In this document: one piece after another, positions 3,951 through 11,038 of the stretch | Layout of the letters: each line of letters begins with the position of its first letter | How positions within the stretch are numbered: the first letter of the stretch is position 1 | Assembly: GCF_000219725.1 (NCBI RefSeq) | Contig: NC_015732.1 | Location: 2,734,972-2,798,971, forward strand | Reading direction: 5' to 3' | Length of the DNA stretch: 64,000 nt | Source: Gracilinema caldarium DSM 7334 | Lineage (GTDB): Bacteria; Spirochaetota; Spirochaetia; Treponematales; Breznakiellaceae | Notes under the pieces: model-generated | Seen by the model: only the letters and a program-made list of their open reading frames with translations | What the model was told of the DNA's origin: nothing | The model's database searches: none | Position numbers and translations under genes: made by a program

Positions 3951-3959
3951 CCCCCCCCC
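3951..3959. repeat. Poly-C tract (C9) next to the his promoter
   Basis: Nine consecutive C residues end two bases before the TTGACA -35 box of the histidine operon. A homopolymer here could slip in replication and change local promoter geometry. The surroundings are AT-rich, so the tract stands out. Confidence 0.8.
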
Positions 3960-3961
3960 AC

Positions 3962-3990
3962 TTGACATATTTTTTGCATACCGGTAGTAT
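3962..3990 (+). promoter_or_regulatory. Sigma-70-type promoter of the his operon
   Basis: A consensus TTGACA (3962-3967) is followed after exactly 17 bases by TAGTAT (3985-3990). The predicted transcript start, near 3997, is about 15 bases upstream of the leader-peptide ATG. This is the best promoter seen in the window. Confidence 0.8.
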
Positions 3991-4011
3991 ATTTATATGA
4001 AACGGATTACT

Positions 4012-4056
4012 ATGAACCACCATCATCATCATGGGTACTCATCCAGGGGGGCATAG
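4012..4056 (+). CDS. hisL: His operon leader peptide, MNHHHHHGYSSRGA
   Basis: The 14-codon ORF ATG AAC CAC CAT CAT CAT CAT GGG TAC TCA TCC AGG GGG GCA TAG carries five consecutive histidine codons. It lies just after a strong promoter, and an intrinsic terminator and hisG follow. In classical his attenuation, ribosome stalling at these codons when charged tRNA-His is scarce favours an antiterminator and lets transcription continue. The peptide is too short for ordinary gene finders. The only Shine-Dalgarno-like sequence is a weak GGA seven bases before the ATG. Confidence 0.88.
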   Translation: MNHHHHHGYSSRGA

Positions 4057-4094
4057 GGTCCGGTGCCGCGTTGCGGTTCTGTTCGGCATATACA

Positions 4095-4127
4095 GCCGTG
4101 GGCTCTATGGGGTCCACGGCTTTTTTT
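4095..4127 (+). terminator. His operon attenuator terminator
   Basis: GCCGTGG (4095-4101) pairs with CCACGGC (4114-4120). The stem extends inward through G-U and C-G pairs to a TATG loop, giving 11 bp, and is followed by seven T residues (4121-4127). It starts 38 bases after the leader-peptide stop. A CGGC at 4084-4087 could pair instead with GCCG at 4095-4098, the terminator's 5' arm, and is a candidate antiterminator element. An upstream hairpin around CCGCgttGCGG (4066-4076) may act as the pause structure. Confidence 0.85.
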
Positions 4128-4208: not shown

Positions 4209-5063
4209 ATGGGAAAATTGCGGATTTTAATACCCAAGGGCAGGATATTTGACAATGTGTCCCGATTGTTTGCCGAAGCGGGTATTCCAATAAGCCTTTC
4301 CGAGCGGACCTACCGGCCCAACATTGCCGCTGACTGGCTCGATGGAAAGGTCATGAAACCCCAGAATGTGGGGGAACTCTTAGAAATTGGGAGCCACGAT
4401 GCAGGTTTTACCGGCATCGACTGGATCCGTGAAACCGGATCGAACGTGGTAGAAGTGATGGACCTGGGCTTTGACCGGGTTCGGATTGTGGCAGCGGTCC
4501 CCGCTGAAATGGACGAGGCTGCCCTGCGGGGAAAGAAACTTGTTGTAGCCACCGAGTATGTTAACCTTGCCCGGGAATGGCTTACGAAAAAGGGCTATGA
4601 TTTCCGGATTCTCAGGACCTACGGCGCCACCGAAGTATTCCCGCCGGATGATGCGGACATGATCGTCGATAACACCTCCACCGGCCAAACCCTGCGGGAC
4701 AACGGCCTGCGGATCGTAGATACCATCCTTGAGTCATCAACCCGTTTTGTTGCATCCAAGATTGCCATGGCAGATCCGGAGAAGAAGGCTCAGATTGATG
4801 AACTGGCCATGCTCTTTAAGGCGGTCCTTGATGGCCGCGAAAAGGTCATGCTCGAAATGAACGTGAATAAGATCCGCTTCCCCGACCTGGTGGCAGGGCT
4901 TCCGGCTATGCGGAGCCCCACCATCGCCCCTCTGTATGGTGATGACGGCTATGCGGTTAAGGTTGCCGTTCCCCGCCACGAGGTGCCCATCCTGATTCCC
5001 CAGCTTAAACGGCTTGGAGCTACCGATATTGTTGAATATGAGCTGCGTAAGGTAGTTCCCTGA
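4209..5063 (+). CDS. hisG: ATP phosphoribosyltransferase, long form
   Basis: HisG joins ATP and PRPP to make phosphoribosyl-ATP, the committed step of histidine synthesis. The 284-residue length and C-terminal ACT-like part (about 205-284, ending PRHEVPILIPQLKRLGATDI) identify the long, self-regulated form that does not need HisZ. The PRPP-binding region DADMIVDNTSTGQTLRDNGL is visible. AAGGAG precedes the ATG by about seven bases. It is the first structural gene after the leader/attenuator and is therefore under histidine attenuation. It is also probably feedback-inhibited by histidine, as is known for the family. Confidence 0.95.
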   Translation: MGKLRILIPKGRIFDNVSRLFAEAGIPISLSERTYRPNIAADWLDGKVMKPQNVGELLEIGSHDAGFTGIDWIRETGSNVVEVMDLGFDRVRIVAAVPAEMDEAALRGKKLVVATEYVNLAREWLTKKGYDFRILRTYGATEVFPPDDADMIVDNTSTGQTLRDNGLRIVDTILESSTRFVASKIAMADPEKKAQIDELAMLFKAVLDGREKVMLEMNVNKIRFPDLVAGLPAMRSPTIAPLYGDDGYAVKVAVPRHEVPILIPQLKRLGATDIVEYELRKVVP

Positions 5064-5141: not shown

Positions 5142-5747
5142 ATGGAACGGATTGCGGAAATTACACGGAAAACCGGAGAAACCGATATACAGGTAAAACT
5201 CAATATTGATGGAACAGGGTCGGCCAAAATCGACTGCCCCGTAGGTTTTGTAACCCATATGCTCACCACCTTTGCCCGGCATGGCCTTTTTGACATAGAG
5301 CTCACTGCCCGTGGAGACCTGGAGGTGGATCAGCACCACCTGGTAGAAGATATAGGCATTGTACTCGGTCAGGCTTTTGCCAAAGCCTTGGGGGACAAAG
5401 GGGGCATCAACCGGGTCGGAAGCTGTCTCTTCCCTATGGATGAAACCCTGGCCCGGGCAGCGGTGGACCTGTCCGGCAGGCCGTACCTCGTATTCGAGGC
5501 CAATCTGAGCGGCCTCCCCCTGGTTTCCACCGAGGCCAGTTTTCAGACCGATACGGTAGAAGACTTCTGGCTCGGTTTTGCCACCAATGCGGCCTGCGCG
5601 CTTCACCTGGATATACTCCGCGGTCGCAGTGACCACCACAAGATTGAAGCCCTCTTTAAGGCCGCTGCCCGGGCCATGCGGGAAGCCTGCAGTATCGATA
5701 ACCGCAGTTTGGGCCAGATCCCATCCACCAAGGGGGTTCTGGCGTGA
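5142..5747 (+). CDS. hisB: Imidazoleglycerol-phosphate dehydratase
   Basis: The 201-residue monofunctional HisB dehydrates imidazoleglycerol phosphate to imidazoleacetol phosphate. The metal-binding histidine motifs are clear: HMLTTFARHGLFDIE, DQHHLVEDIGIVLG and DHHKIEALFKAAARAM. There is no fused histidinol-phosphatase domain, so that step must be encoded elsewhere. AAAGGAGGAG lies just before the ATG. The 78 bases between hisG and hisB stay open in the hisB frame and would encode 26 residues after the hisG TGA, but no start codon supports a longer HisB. Confidence 0.95.
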   Translation: MERIAEITRKTGETDIQVKLNIDGTGSAKIDCPVGFVTHMLTTFARHGLFDIELTARGDLEVDQHHLVEDIGIVLGQAFAKALGDKGGINRVGSCLFPMDETLARAAVDLSGRPYLVFEANLSGLPLVSTEASFQTDTVEDFWLGFATNAACALHLDILRGRSDHHKIEALFKAAARAMREACSIDNRSLGQIPSTKGVLA

Positions 5748-6406
5748 TTGGCGTCCTCAACTACGGGGCAGGGAACCTGGGATCGGTGATGAATGCCCTT
5801 GCCCGGCTGGGCCTTCCGGCCCAATTCGTGACAGGTCCGGAGGAACTGCAGGTTCGCCGGGGAAACAACAGCGGATCTTCCGCCGGCCAGCAGTACTCGG
5901 CCATCATTTTTCCCGGGGATGGGCACTTCGCCACCGCCATGGAAGCCCTCACAGCCCAGGGCTATACCGAAGCCATCCGGGAGTGGATTGCTGCGGACCT
6001 GCCCTTTCTCGGCATCTGTATCGGCCTGCAATTACTCTTTGAACAGAGCGAAGAAGCACCGCCGGTTCAGGGCAAGGAAATCCCTGGATTATCGGTAATA
6101 CCGGGAAGGGTGAAAAAATTCCAGGGACCCAAGGTTCCCCAGATTGGCTGGAATGAAACCAAAGGTACAAGCCGTTCACGGCTTTTCCAGAACCTGCCGG
6201 AACGTTCTTTCTTCTATTATATACATTCCTATTATGTTGTACCTGCAGAGGAAGACTGGGTTGCCGCAGAGGCAGACTACTATGGAACCTACTGCAGTGC
6301 GGTGGAACGGGGTGCCCTGACGGCGGTCCAGTTCCACCCGGAAAAATCGGGAGCTCTGGGACTGGAACTCCTGCGGCGCTGGGCTGAGGTGTACCATGTT
6401 AGCTAA
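5744..6406 (+). CDS. hisH: Imidazole glycerol phosphate synthase, glutaminase subunit
   Basis: HisH hydrolyses glutamine and channels ammonia to HisF. The class I glutamine amidotransferase triad is present: Cys92 in FLGICIGLQ, with His198 and Glu200 in FHPEKSG. The 220-residue length is slightly long because of a short Gly/Ser/Asn-rich insert near residues 37-50 ([13 protein letters not shown]). The gene starts with GTG and overlaps the hisB stop (GTGA), so translation is probably coupled. The next gene, hisF, encodes its obligate partner. Confidence 0.95.
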
Positions 6407-7172
6407 ACGAATCATTCCCTGCCTGGACGTAGATGACGGCAGAGTCGTTAAGGGAATAAAGTTTGAAGGCATTAAGGACGCGGGGGACCCGGTGGAACTG
6501 GCCCGCTGCTATAATGAACAGGGAGCCGATGAGCTCACCTTTCTTGACATCGGCGCCTCCTACAAAAGCCGGGATACCCTCATGGAGGTAGTCCGCCAGG
6601 TTGCCCGGGAAGTCTTTATCCCCCTCTGCGTAGGAGGGGGGATCCGCACGGTAGAGGATATGCGCCTTGCCATGAACGCTGGGGCAGACAAGGTATCGGT
6701 CTGTACGGCAGCCCTGCGGAATCCTGCACTGCTCACCGAGATGGCCCGGGCCTATGGGAGCCAGTGCGTGGTCCTTTCCATCGATGCAAAACGGGTATCT
6801 GAGCCCGGCGAAGCTCCCCGCTGGCATGCCTTTGCCAAGGGCGGCAGGGAAGATACGGGGATTGATGCCATCCAGTGGGCCATAGAGGCGGTCCGGCTCG
6901 GAGCGGGGGAAATACTCCTTAACTCCATCGATGCGGACGGAACCGGTGCGGGCTATGACCTTGAACTAACCCGCCGGGTGGGAGAAGCGGTTCCCGTGCC
7001 GGTGATTGCCTCAGGCGGGGCGGGTAATCTGGACCAGATTGTCCAGGCTCTTATCCCGGAAGGGGGCAACGCCGATGCGGCCCTGGTGGCCAGCATGCTG
7101 CACTTCGGAAAAACAACGATACAGGAAATTAAAACCTACGCAGAACAGAAAGGAGTGGTAGTTCGATGGTAA
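6396..7172 (+). CDS. hisF: Imidazole glycerol phosphate synthase, cyclase subunit
   Basis: This 258-residue TIM barrel uses PRFAR and the ammonia delivered by HisH to form imidazoleglycerol phosphate and AICAR. The catalytic aspartates sit at residue 11 (PCLDVDDG) and residue 130 (VVLSIDAKR), and the phosphate-binding loops [10 protein letters not shown] and IASGGAGN are intact. The start overlaps hisH by 11 bases, as expected for subunits of one complex. Confidence 0.96.
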
Positions 7173-8437
7173 TAGCTTCTATAGATATTCAAAACGGAAA
7201 AGTCGTCCAGCTGAAACAGGGTTCTCAGCTCATGCTCGAACGGGAAGATGCGGCAGAACTGGCCGCCGAATTCGACAAATATGGGGAAGTGGCGGTCATC
7301 GACCTGGATGCGGCTATGAAAACCGGTTCCAACGACGAATTGGTCAAATCCTTGCTCCGCCGGGCCGATTGCCGGGTTGGCGGCGGCATCGCCACAGTGG
7401 AACGGGCGGCGGAGCTCGTCAGCCTCGGGGCAAAAAAGGTCATAATCGGGTCCAAGGCTTTCCGGACATCAGGAGACAGTTTCGGCATTAACACAGCCTT
7501 CCTGGAAGCCCTGGCAAAAAAGATCGGCCGGGAGCGGGTTATCGTGGCCGTCGATGCCCGGGACGGCGAAATCGTCGTCGATGGCTGGAAGACCCCCACA
7601 GGGCTGCCCCTTATCGAGAGTGCCAAAGCGCTGGAACCCTATGTGGGGGAACTGCTTTACACCTGCGTTGAGCGGGAAGGAACCATGACCGGCACCAACC
7701 TGGACAGTATCCGCTCCCTGCGGGAAGCGGTTTCCTGTCTCGTCACGGTTGCCGGCGGCGTGAGCACCCTGGAAGAAATCGAAGCCATCGCCCGGCTGGG
7801 CTGTGATGTCCAGCTCGGCATGGCCCTCTATACCGGCAAAATCAACCTGGCCGATGCCTTTATTGCAAGCCTTTCCTGGAACCAGGCCTGGCAGGAGGGA
7901 AAACTGCTACCCGTCGTCGCCCAGGCCCCGGACGGTCAGGTTCTCATGCTGGGCTACACCGACAGGGAGGCCCTGGCGGAGACCTTTAAGCGGGGAAACC
8001 TCTGCTTTCACAGCCGGAGCCGCAACAAGCTCTGGATGAAGGGTGAAAGCTCAGGTAACACCCTCAAACTCATTCGGCTCCGGGCGGACTGCGACCGGGA
8101 CACCATACTTGCGACAGTAGAACCGACGGGTCCCACCTGTCATACCGGAAACTGGACCTGTTTTACGGACCAGCGCTATACCTGGGAACTTTTGCAGAAC
8201 ATCGTCACTGAACGGTTCCGCAACCCCAAACCGGGTTCCTACACGGCAACGTTGGACGATGAACGGGTCCGGGAAAAGGTGATGGAAGAAGCCGAAGAGG
8301 TCTGCACCGCAAAAACCCATGATGAAATCATCTGGGAAGTGGCGGACCTTTTATATTTTACGACAGTATTGATGACCCGGGCCGGAGTCTCGGTGGTAGA
8401 GGTCATGGCTGAACTTGATCGGCGGCACAAGAAATGA
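7166..8437 (+). CDS. hisA/hisI/hisE: Trifunctional HisA-HisI-HisE fusion
   Basis: The single 423-residue ORF joins three enzymes. Residues 1 to about 238 are the HisA ProFAR isomerase barrel ([42 protein letters not shown]). Residues about 242-333 are the HisI phosphoribosyl-AMP cyclohydrolase, with Zn/Mg ligand motifs [10 protein letters not shown] and PTCHTGNW. Residues about 338-423 are the HisE phosphoribosyl-ATP pyrophosphohydrolase, with EEAEE and EVADLLYF. Together they run three consecutive steps, from PR-ATP to PRFAR. HisI-HisE fusions are common; adding HisA at the front is less usual. The reading frame is unbroken across both joins. The gene overlaps hisF by seven bases and hisC by four. 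Confidence 0.93.
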
Positions 8438-9612
8438 CCAGGTTGATGAAGGGAAGTCCCTACTGGAGCAGCCGCTGTGCAGCTCTGGAGCCCTACACTC
8501 CGGGGGAGCAGCCCCGGGACCGGCGGTACATCAAACTGAATACCAATGAAAGCCCCTACCCGCCTTCGCCGAAGGTGCTAGAAGCGCTTAAGACTGCGGC
8601 CAACGGGGACCTGCGGCTCTATCCGGACCCGACATGCCTTGCGCTCCGCGAAACAATCGCGAGGAGGTACGGGCTTCCGGGCCCCGAATGGGTCTTTGTG
8701 GGGAACGGCTCTGATGAAATCCTCGCCTTTGCCTTTGCGGCCTTTTTCGGTCCCCGGAAACGGACCGGCTCCACCCCGGCATCCGGCTCAGGGCTTATCA
8801 CAGGACAAAGCGGGCCGGATCCGCTCTACCAAGATGAGGCTCCCCTGCTCTTCCCGGACATCACCTACAGCTTTTATCCGGTCTATGCCCAGTTGTGGAA
8901 TATTCCCTACGGGACGATTCCGGTTTCAGACACGTTTGAAATAGATCCTCGGGAGTACTTGCAAAGGGCTGCCGGTGTAGTCCTGGCGAATCCTAACGCA
9001 CCAACAGGCCGCGCCCTCGGCAAGGGGGCTCTCAGGGAACTGGCCGCCTTTCATCAACAGAACCAACGGGTAGTTTTAATTGATGAGGCCTATGTGGACT
9101 TTGGGGGCGAATCCATGGCGGAAGATGTTAAACAGTTTGATAATCTCCTCGTGGTCCATACACTTTCCAAGTCCCGTTCTCTGGCAGGGCTCAGGGTGGG
9201 CTATGCACTGGGACATCCGGACCTTATCGAAGGCTTGCGGCGGATTAAGGACTCCTTTAATTCGTATACACTGGACCGGCTTGCATTGGCAGGTGCCCAG
9301 GCGGCCATCGAAGACCGGGACTATTACGATGCCATGGCTGCTCGGATTATCGCAACCCGAGAGCGGACCTGCACCCAGCTCGAAGCCCTGGGATTCGAAG
9401 TAATTCCCTCTGGGGCAAACTTTATCTTTATCCGGCATCCGGCGCGGCGCGGGGCAGAACTGTTTCAGTCGCTGCGAGACCGTGGGATCCTTGTCCGTCA
9501 CTGGAACAAGGAGCGGATCAGCGAGTACCTCCGGGTGAGTATCGGGACCGATGAGGAAATGGACAGCTTTGTAGGCTGTTGCCAGGAACTTGTAGAAAAG
9601 CCAAATACGTAG
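8434..9612 (+). CDS. hisC: Histidinol-phosphate aminotransferase
   Basis: This 392-residue class I/II PLP aminotransferase converts imidazoleacetol phosphate to histidinol phosphate. The family start KLNTNESPYPPSP, the VLIDEAYVDF aspartate (Asp218) and the Schiff-base lysine Lys246 in HTLSKSRSLAGLRVGY are present. Residues about 108-136 (TGSTPASGSGLITGQSG region) form a Gly/Ser-rich insert where the family normally has a short loop, explaining the length above the usual 350-370. The ATGA overlap with the preceding gene indicates coupled translation. Confidence 0.94.
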   Translation: MTRLMKGSPYWSSRCAALEPYTPGEQPRDRRYIKLNTNESPYPPSPKVLEALKTAANGDLRLYPDPTCLALRETIARRYGLPGPEWVFVGNGSDEILAFAFAAFFGPRKRTGSTPASGSGLITGQSGPDPLYQDEAPLLFPDITYSFYPVYAQLWNIPYGTIPVSDTFEIDPREYLQRAAGVVLANPNAPTGRALGKGALRELAAFHQQNQRVVLIDEAYVDFGGESMAEDVKQFDNLLVVHTLSKSRSLAGLRVGYALGHPDLIEGLRRIKDSFNSYTLDRLALAGAQAAIEDRDYYDAMAARIIATRERTCTQLEALGFEVIPSGANFIFIRHPARRGAELFQSLRDRGILVRHWNKERISEYLRVSIGTDEEMDSFVGCCQELVEKPNT

Positions 9613-9640
9613 GGAGCGCCATCGCACCAGAGGAATGATC

Positions 9641-11038
9641 ATGACCATACTGAAAGCCAAGGATTTTGATGCATACTGGAACTCACTCCATGGGGGCAGA
9701 CCTTTGCCCCGGGGAGACGCCGCGGCGGCTGGCCCCGCACACCTCGCATCCAGCCCTGCTGCCGCGGCCCCTGTTGCCGCGAGCCCCTCGCCTGAGGCCC
9801 TAAGCCCATCAGCGGCCACAGCGACCGACACAGCGGTCCTCGCCATCATCGAAGCTGTCCGTTCCGGCGGGGACCGGGCCCTGCGGGACCTGGCGGCCCG
9901 CTTTGACCGCTCAAGCCCAGAACGGCTGGAAGTTCCCATGACTGCGGCCCGCCGGGCCCTTGAGGAACTGGAAGCGACCGATGCGAGCCTCGCCACAGCC
10001 CTGAGGCTCGCCGCTGACCACATCAGGGTTTTTGCAGAACTGCAGAAAAAGCAGTTTACCGACTTTGAGGTGAAACTTGAGCCGGGGCTTTTCACGGGTC
10101 AGCGGTGCATTCCGGTGGAACGGGCTGCGGTCTATGTCCCGGCGGGCCGCTTCCCCCTCATTTCTACGGTGCTCATGGGGGTCATCCCCGCAAAGGTAGC
10201 CGGTGTGGATGAGCTTATCATCCTGTCACCGCCTCTTGAAGATGGCCTTCCGGACCGGCGCATCCTGGCCGCAGCGGCATTGGCCGGGGCAGACCGGATA
10301 TTTGCCGTCGGCGGTGCCCAGGCTGTTGCGGCAGCCGCCTTTGGAACCGAATCGGTCCCCCGCTGTGATGTGATCGTGGGGCCGGGAAATAAATATGTGG
10401 CCGCCGCAAAGCGGCTCCTCTTTGGCCAGGTCGGCATAGACTTTGTGGCGGGTCCCACGGATGTGCTCATCATAGCCGATGGAACGGCCAGCGCGGACCT
10501 CATCGCCGCGGATATGCTGGCTCAGGCAGAACATGATCCGGACGCCCGCGCCCGGGTCCTAGTCCCCAGCGAAGCGCTGGCCCAGGCCGTGCAGGCCGAC
10601 CTGGTGCGGCGGCTGAGCAAGCTGGGCACCGCCGACACCGCCCGGGCATCCCTCGATGCCGGGGGGCTTATCATCATCTATGAAACCCTGGACGAAGCCA
10701 TACAGATTGCTAACACCATTGCACCGGAACACCTGGAACTGCACCTGGCAGAGCCGGAGACCATTGCCGGCAGGCTCAGGAATTATGGCTCCCTCTTTAT
10801 AGGGCACCTGGCGGCGGAAGTGCTGGGCGATTATTCAGCAGGGATTAACCATACCCTTCCAACTTCAGGAACAGCCCGCTTTACCGGCGGCCTCTCGGTC
10901 CGGCACTTCATTAAAACCGTCACCAGCCTCCGCTGTACGCCAGGTTCCGGCTTTGAGACAAGCCGAAAGGCCGCTGCCATAATCGCCCGTGCTGAAGGGC
11001 TCGACGGCCACCGGCAAAGCGCTGAGAGCAGGGGATAG
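9641..11038 (+). CDS. hisD: Histidinol dehydrogenase
   Basis: HisD oxidises histidinol to histidine with two NAD and a zinc ion. The motifs GPGNKYVAAAK, DFVAGPTDVLI, LAQAEHDPDA (zinc ligands Gln/His) and LGDYSAGINHTLPTSG are all present. Two ATGs lie six bases apart; I prefer 9641 because AGAGGA (9629-9634) is correctly spaced for it and too close to 9635. From there the protein has 465 residues. A roughly 40-residue Ala/Pro/Ser-rich insert (about residues 24-62) interrupts the N-terminal region and accounts for the extra length. It is the last gene of the operon. Confidence 0.94.
   Translation: MTILKAKDFDAYWNSLHGGRPLPRGDAAAAGPAHLASSPAAAAPVAASPSPEALSPSAATATDTAVLAIIEAVRSGGDRALRDLAARFDRSSPERLEVPMTAARRALEELEATDASLATALRLAADHIRVFAELQKKQFTDFEVKLEPGLFTGQRCIPVERAAVYVPAGRFPLISTVLMGVIPAKVAGVDELIILSPPLEDGLPDRRILAAAALAGADRIFAVGGAQAVAAAAFGTESVPRCDVIVGPGNKYVAAAKRLLFGQVGIDFVAGPTDVLIIADGTASADLIAADMLAQAEHDPDARARVLVPSEALAQAVQADLVRRLSKLGTADTARASLDAGGLIIIYETLDEAIQIANTIAPEHLELHLAEPETIAGRLRNYGSLFIGHLAAEVLGDYSAGINHTLPTSGTARFTGGLSVRHFIKTVTSLRCTPGSGFETSRKAAAIIARAEGLDGHRQSAESRG

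Follow-up and report, generated by a model that had tools for sequence, protein, structure and literature searches.

The region upstream of hisG

The window, the whole 64,000-nucleotide stretch analysed here, belongs to a genome assembled as a single contig of 3,239,340 bases. It carries a cluster of his genes headed by hisG, and hisG through hisD presumably form a single operon. Upstream of hisG lie a promoter, a short ORF with a run of His codons and an intrinsic terminator.

3962-3967, plus strand: -35 box TTGACA, starting 35 nt ahead of the ATG of the leader ORF
3985-3990, plus strand: -10 box TAGTAT; transcription predicted to start on the A of the ATG at 3997 or adjacent to it
3997-4056, plus strand: leader peptide ORF of 19 codons (MKRITMNHHHHHGYSSRGA, then stop), probably leaderless
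4003-4014, plus strand: segment 1 (CGGATT A CTATG), predicted to pair with segment 2 if the ribosome is absent (folding, swap test and pair counts)
4018-4032, plus strand: five consecutive His codons, CAC CAT CAT CAT CAT; candidate sensing site
4052-4062, plus strand: segment 2 (CATAGGGTCCG), overlapping the stop codon; partner of segment 1 or 3
4065-4098, plus strand: spacer with small hairpins, including 4084-4087 paired with 4095-4098, the inner antiterminator arm
4094-4127, plus strand: intrinsic terminator, with a 12-bp stem (4094-4121), a 4-nt loop and seven T (4121-4127)
4100-4109, plus strand: segment 3 (GGGCTCTATG), which pairs with segment 2 in the antiterminator and also contributes to the 5' arm and loop of the terminator
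4209-5063, plus strand: hisG, first his gene, long form with a C-terminal domain (TIGR00070 and TIGR03455 above cut-off)
5142-11038, plus strand: hisB, hisH, hisF, a hisA-hisIE fusion, hisC and hisD, same-strand ORFs that overlap or are closely spaced

The two promoter boxes are separated by a 17-nt spacer and agree with the consensus at 10 of 12 positions. Just upstream of the -35 box, at 3951-3959, stands a run of nine C, possibly a length-variable tract. The stop codon of the leader ORF (4054-4056) falls inside segment 2. By chance, a run of five CAY codons would turn up about 1e-5 times per 300 nt at the base composition of the window; the 3.24-Mb genome holds only four such runs.

A sequence-only reading of this DNA had proposed a his attenuator in a probable spirochaete, with a consensus promoter, five consecutive His codons and a terminator with a seven-T tract placed 82 bases before hisG. 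Each of these parts is present and the distance is correct, the ATG of hisG being at 4209; together with the his cluster and the conservation described below, they support the attenuator reading. The spirochaete assignment also holds: the nearest named relative of HisG, at 95% identity, comes from a Gracilinema caldarium MAG (Spirochaetota, Spirochaetia, Treponematales, Breznakiellaceae). The leader ORF had been drawn with 14 codons (4012-4056). That ORF exists but is the inner part of the 19-codon ORF, whose start at 3997 is the conserved one.

Competing helices in the leader RNA

In silico, the leader RNA folds into two competing helices. The antiterminator is a 10-bp helix between segments 2 and 3 (4052-4061 with 4100-4109); the helix between segments 1 and 2 (4003-4014 with 4052-4062) blocks it. 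Folding with and without the ribosome-covered segment, as the sequence-only reading had suggested, gave a different structure in each situation: the 1:2 helix when the nascent RNA reaches 4109 and the whole leader is free; the 10-bp 2:3 helix when the RNA ending at 4109 is freed from 4033 or 4046, as with a ribosome on the His codons; and the terminator when the RNA runs from 4058 to 4126, with segment 2 largely covered as by a ribosome at the stop codon. At full length, the minimum free energy favours the terminator in every case, and antitermination must therefore be kinetic, as it is in textbook attenuators.

The pairing of 4084-4087 with 4095-4098 had been put forward as the antiterminator, with the concern that it was short. 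It exists as a conserved inner hairpin (91% of cells paired in relatives), but it is not the main helix; the 10-bp 2:3 helix removes the concern. For the main terminator stem, 94.8% of cells are paired across 23 relatives. The consensus words of the family are CGGAyT in segment 1, GAGTCCGG in segment 2, CCGTGGACTC in segment 3 and GAGTCCACGG in segment 4.

We compared the pairing energy of segments from the same genome with that of segments re-paired at random among genomes, a swap test that replaced a shuffle test after the result of the latter had been seen; the family sample is related by descent, and the p values of both serve as guides. Own-genome pairing was stronger for 1:2 (-12.66 against -10.91 when swapped, p=5e-5) and for 2:3 (-19.38 against -16.55, p=5e-5), and also among 22 less redundant leaders (p=5e-4 and p=2e-4, respectively). 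The control pairing 1:3 gave no own-genome excess in this test, showing the opposite tendency. Against composition alone, the shuffle test of 2:3 was weak, with a mean z of -1.2. Column covariation for the OFF structure scored above all 500 shuffles; for the ON structure alone it was weak (101 of 500 shuffles reach the score), because the conserved words leave little variation. The swap test supports both competing helices, 1:2 and 2:3, in the family, as judged from sequence.

A crude model of ribosome occlusion was applied to 32 leaders. Mean sequestration of the terminator arm was 0.59 without a ribosome, 0.72 with a ribosome on the His codons and 0.30 with a ribosome at the stop codon; the stalled value exceeded the stop value in 30 of the 32. 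The leader of the window is one of the two exceptions (0.62 stalled, 0.64 at the stop): the score does not separate its two states because the inner hairpin at 4084-4098 can form in both.

Leader start, distribution and proposed switch

Of 85 non-redundant relatives, about half have a leader with a His run ahead of hisG, the run counting three to six consecutive His codons in many relatives. Conservation of the run had been set beforehand as the test of the attenuator proposal, which passes it; the run is the best-kept feature of a leader peptide that is otherwise poorly conserved. A covariance model (R1) built from 23 leaders, its training loci coming from the same family that was then searched, matches 62 of 200 family genomes at E<=0.01. 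By comparison with the positions of hisG matches, nearly all of these are found immediately before hisG. At this strict filter, no R1 match appears in over two thirds of the family genomes, many of them being incomplete MAGs and some having no hisG; the element is not universal in the family, or it has diverged. In one genome (G095), the attenuator precedes hisB-hisH-hisF instead of hisG. In another (G017), a reverse-transcriptase/maturase-like ORF, likely a group II intron, lies between the his attenuator and hisG (L255 744-2174, G017:C74). One R1 match (G015:C3) is probably due to chance, and those outside the family at E>1e-4 (L148, L149, L152-L154, L158) are mostly ordinary terminators; we set them aside.

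The relatives keep the outer start of the leader peptide (MKRI, MNRI, MNRT, MNWI and similar), and we therefore prefer 3997 to 4012 as its most likely start, giving 19 codons and not 14. Since CGGAyT in segment 1 is conserved, the apparent conservation of MKRI/MNRT at the peptide start seems to be, at least partly, that of the RNA segment.

The -35 box stands 35-37 nt before the outer start codon in 40 of 42 family leaders (35 nt in 20, 36 nt in 17 and 37 nt in 3). The search for leaders relied on His content and on a TTGAC close by, over a range of 28-43 nt, only matches with an HH-bearing peptide being counted; the count is conditional on both features, and its informative part is the concentration at 35-37 nt inside the searched range. 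The same distance is found in 13 of 16 distinct leaders from other families of the class. L184 shares this spacing but has GTG as start codon; L194, L202 and L204 have a longer 5' region, with a Shine-Dalgarno-like sequence in L194 and L202. In this genome, ATG is offset by 35 from TTGACA in 12 of 100 cases among the matches listed, the commonest of offsets 27-56 among them (binomial p of about 1e-4 under a uniform null). Taken with the 17-nt spacer, the 35-37 nt distance suggests that transcription starts on the A of the AUG or right next to it; from this promoter geometry we infer that the transcript probably begins at AUG 3997, i.e. is leaderless. No ordinary Shine-Dalgarno sequence was seen before 3997. 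In Leptospira, another spirochaete, about 440 mRNAs have a 5' UTR under 10 nt (PMC5243855).

We give a probability of about 90% to the reading that 3962-4127 attenuates transcription of the his operon by a ribosome-mediated mechanism, its leader peptide being translated from a leaderless transcript. Transcription would start at or beside AUG 3997, and a ribosome would load on the 5' end. With charged His-tRNA plentiful, it would pass 4018-4032, reach the stop codon at 4054-4056 and cover segment 2; segment 3 would then build the terminator, ending transcription before hisG. With His-tRNA scarce, the ribosome would stall on the His codons, covering or displacing segment 1 and leaving segment 2 free to form the 10-bp helix with segment 3; the terminator would come too late, and hisG and the downstream genes would be transcribed. 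If no ribosome loads, the 1:2 pairing would let the terminator form. The locus has the parts of this class of mechanism: a small reading frame with consecutive cognate codons ahead of a biosynthetic operon, and an intrinsic terminator before the first structural gene. Computationally, the antiterminator excludes the terminator, and a ribosome that has reached the stop codon hides the 5' arm of the antiterminator, the window alone not being discriminated by the occlusion score.

The same attenuator could have its leader translated from the inner ATG at 4012, behind a short 5' UTR. This ATG is in frame and is found in the four Gracilinema genomes; nearly all other leaders of the family lack it while keeping the outer start, no clear Shine-Dalgarno sequence precedes it, and the distance of 35-37 nt between the -35 box and the outer start is maintained across families, which makes a 14-codon leader unlikely. 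The peptide might instead be a His-rich small protein, perhaps metal-binding, with a function of its own next to a constitutive terminator and without any attenuation. Its small size and His content agree with this, sequence alone leaves room for a peptide function, and leader peptides can act in trans, as does peTrpL of S. meliloti (PMC7298713). Poor conservation outside the His run, alternative RNA pairings kept by own-genome complementarity and the tie between the position of the element and the his genes render it highly improbable.

A control of the terminator by a trans-acting factor or a riboswitch-like RNA (a T-box or a His-binding aptamer), the ORF being incidental, is the least credible option. 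Switching between terminator and antiterminator would by itself fit many 5' elements. An Rfam search of the window, including the T-box covariance model, returned no family at the gathering score and few matches at a relaxed threshold, far below gathering scores; besides, it is the His run that is best kept in the peptide. Attenuation by a ribosome translating from 3997 remains our preferred reading.

Other leaders and known attenuators

Beyond this family, at least four others of the class (f12, f56, f57, f65) and one genome of f58 (G493) also carry a His leader with a terminator behind it; HisG is only about 25-31% identical there. Their antiterminators use other sequences, e.g. GAAGTGCG with CGCATTTC, GGGATGCG with CGCATTCC, and GGAATGCG with CGCATTTC. 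At class level, the swap test gives p=5e-5 for 2:3 and p=0.002 for the His run with segment 2, so segment 1 may be the His run itself in these families. Most class genomes with short HisG matches have no leader within 700 nt upstream of hisG; hisG is perhaps not the first gene there, and this is not evidence of absence.

Leaders for other amino acids were also seen. An Ile-rich leader (MNHYDSAQNSIIILIIIESLM, then stop), with TTGACA 38 nt before its ATG and followed by a terminator, precedes a citramalate/isopropylmalate-synthase-like gene in a genome from a different family of this class and is a candidate Ile attenuator (L147, G448:C3:298750-298872, locus position 1501). In family f22, which lies outside this class but within the same phylum, leaders with a Trp run, for example MMHKNLTSMINNSWWWWTKAMST (then stop), stand before a trpE-like gene; their terminator, of the AAGCCGTGGGT type, is single or present as a tandem pair (L150, L155, L156, L157). 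An ORF with seven Tyr codons (MIYFYYYYYYYPYG, then stop), possibly of low complexity, has a terminator behind it and stands before an MBL-fold-like gene (L146, G372:C79:17175-17299). In this genome, no leader peptide was seen ahead of trpE or ahead of the DAHP-synthase/ilvN/ilvC/leuA cluster. An ORF resembling a DAHP synthase-prephenate dehydratase fusion heads a cluster of ilvN-, ilvC- and leuA-like genes (L193, G000:C1:3030700-3036500).

We lean towards the view that leaderless leader peptides serve attenuation as an old and general form of regulation in Spirochaetia: counting this one, no fewer than five families carry His leaders, whose pairing sequences differ, and in a further family the Ile leader ahead of a citramalate-synthase-like gene has almost the same arrangement of promoter and AUG. 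If so, the sensing ribosome would initiate on a bare 5' AUG, and sensing and initiation would be coupled from the first nucleotide. Dozens of genomes from several families form a large natural series with a probably leaderless leader ORF, in which one could ask whether leaderless initiation is fast enough for attenuation and with what frequency the switch arises anew with other pairing sequences. In practice, the analysis yields small ORFs and regulatory sites likely to escape annotation pipelines.

The sequence-only reading knew of no described case in spirochaetes; in agreement, mostly open-access literature with a spirochaete scope gave no earlier report of his attenuation there, and classical attenuation would be extended to a phylum for which no report was found. 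Published predictions of his attenuators cover Proteobacteria and, outside them, some Firmicutes, namely the Bacillus cereus group, Peptostreptococcaceae and Erysipelotrichales, where comparative genomics points to three to five His codons; that study does not mention spirochaetes and is not known to describe a leaderless layout (PMC9413887). The element is not a member of the Rfam His_leader family (RF00514), scoring 17.3 bits (E=1.8) against a gathering threshold of 49 bits. With the enterobacterial his attenuator (hisL; RF00514) it shares a leader peptide with a His run, mutually exclusive terminator and antiterminator, and a place upstream of hisG. It differs in its pairing sequences, in segment 1 preceding the His run in this family and in an apparently leaderless transcript, a layout absent from the enterobacterial paradigm. 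A precedent for the latter is the trpL attenuator (rnTrpL) of Sinorhizobium meliloti, where the RNA starts directly at the leader-peptide AUG, as it would here; that system is alphaproteobacterial, senses Trp and controls a different operon (PMC7298713). The element of the window would therefore be a known mechanism in a new, leaderless version in spirochaetes.
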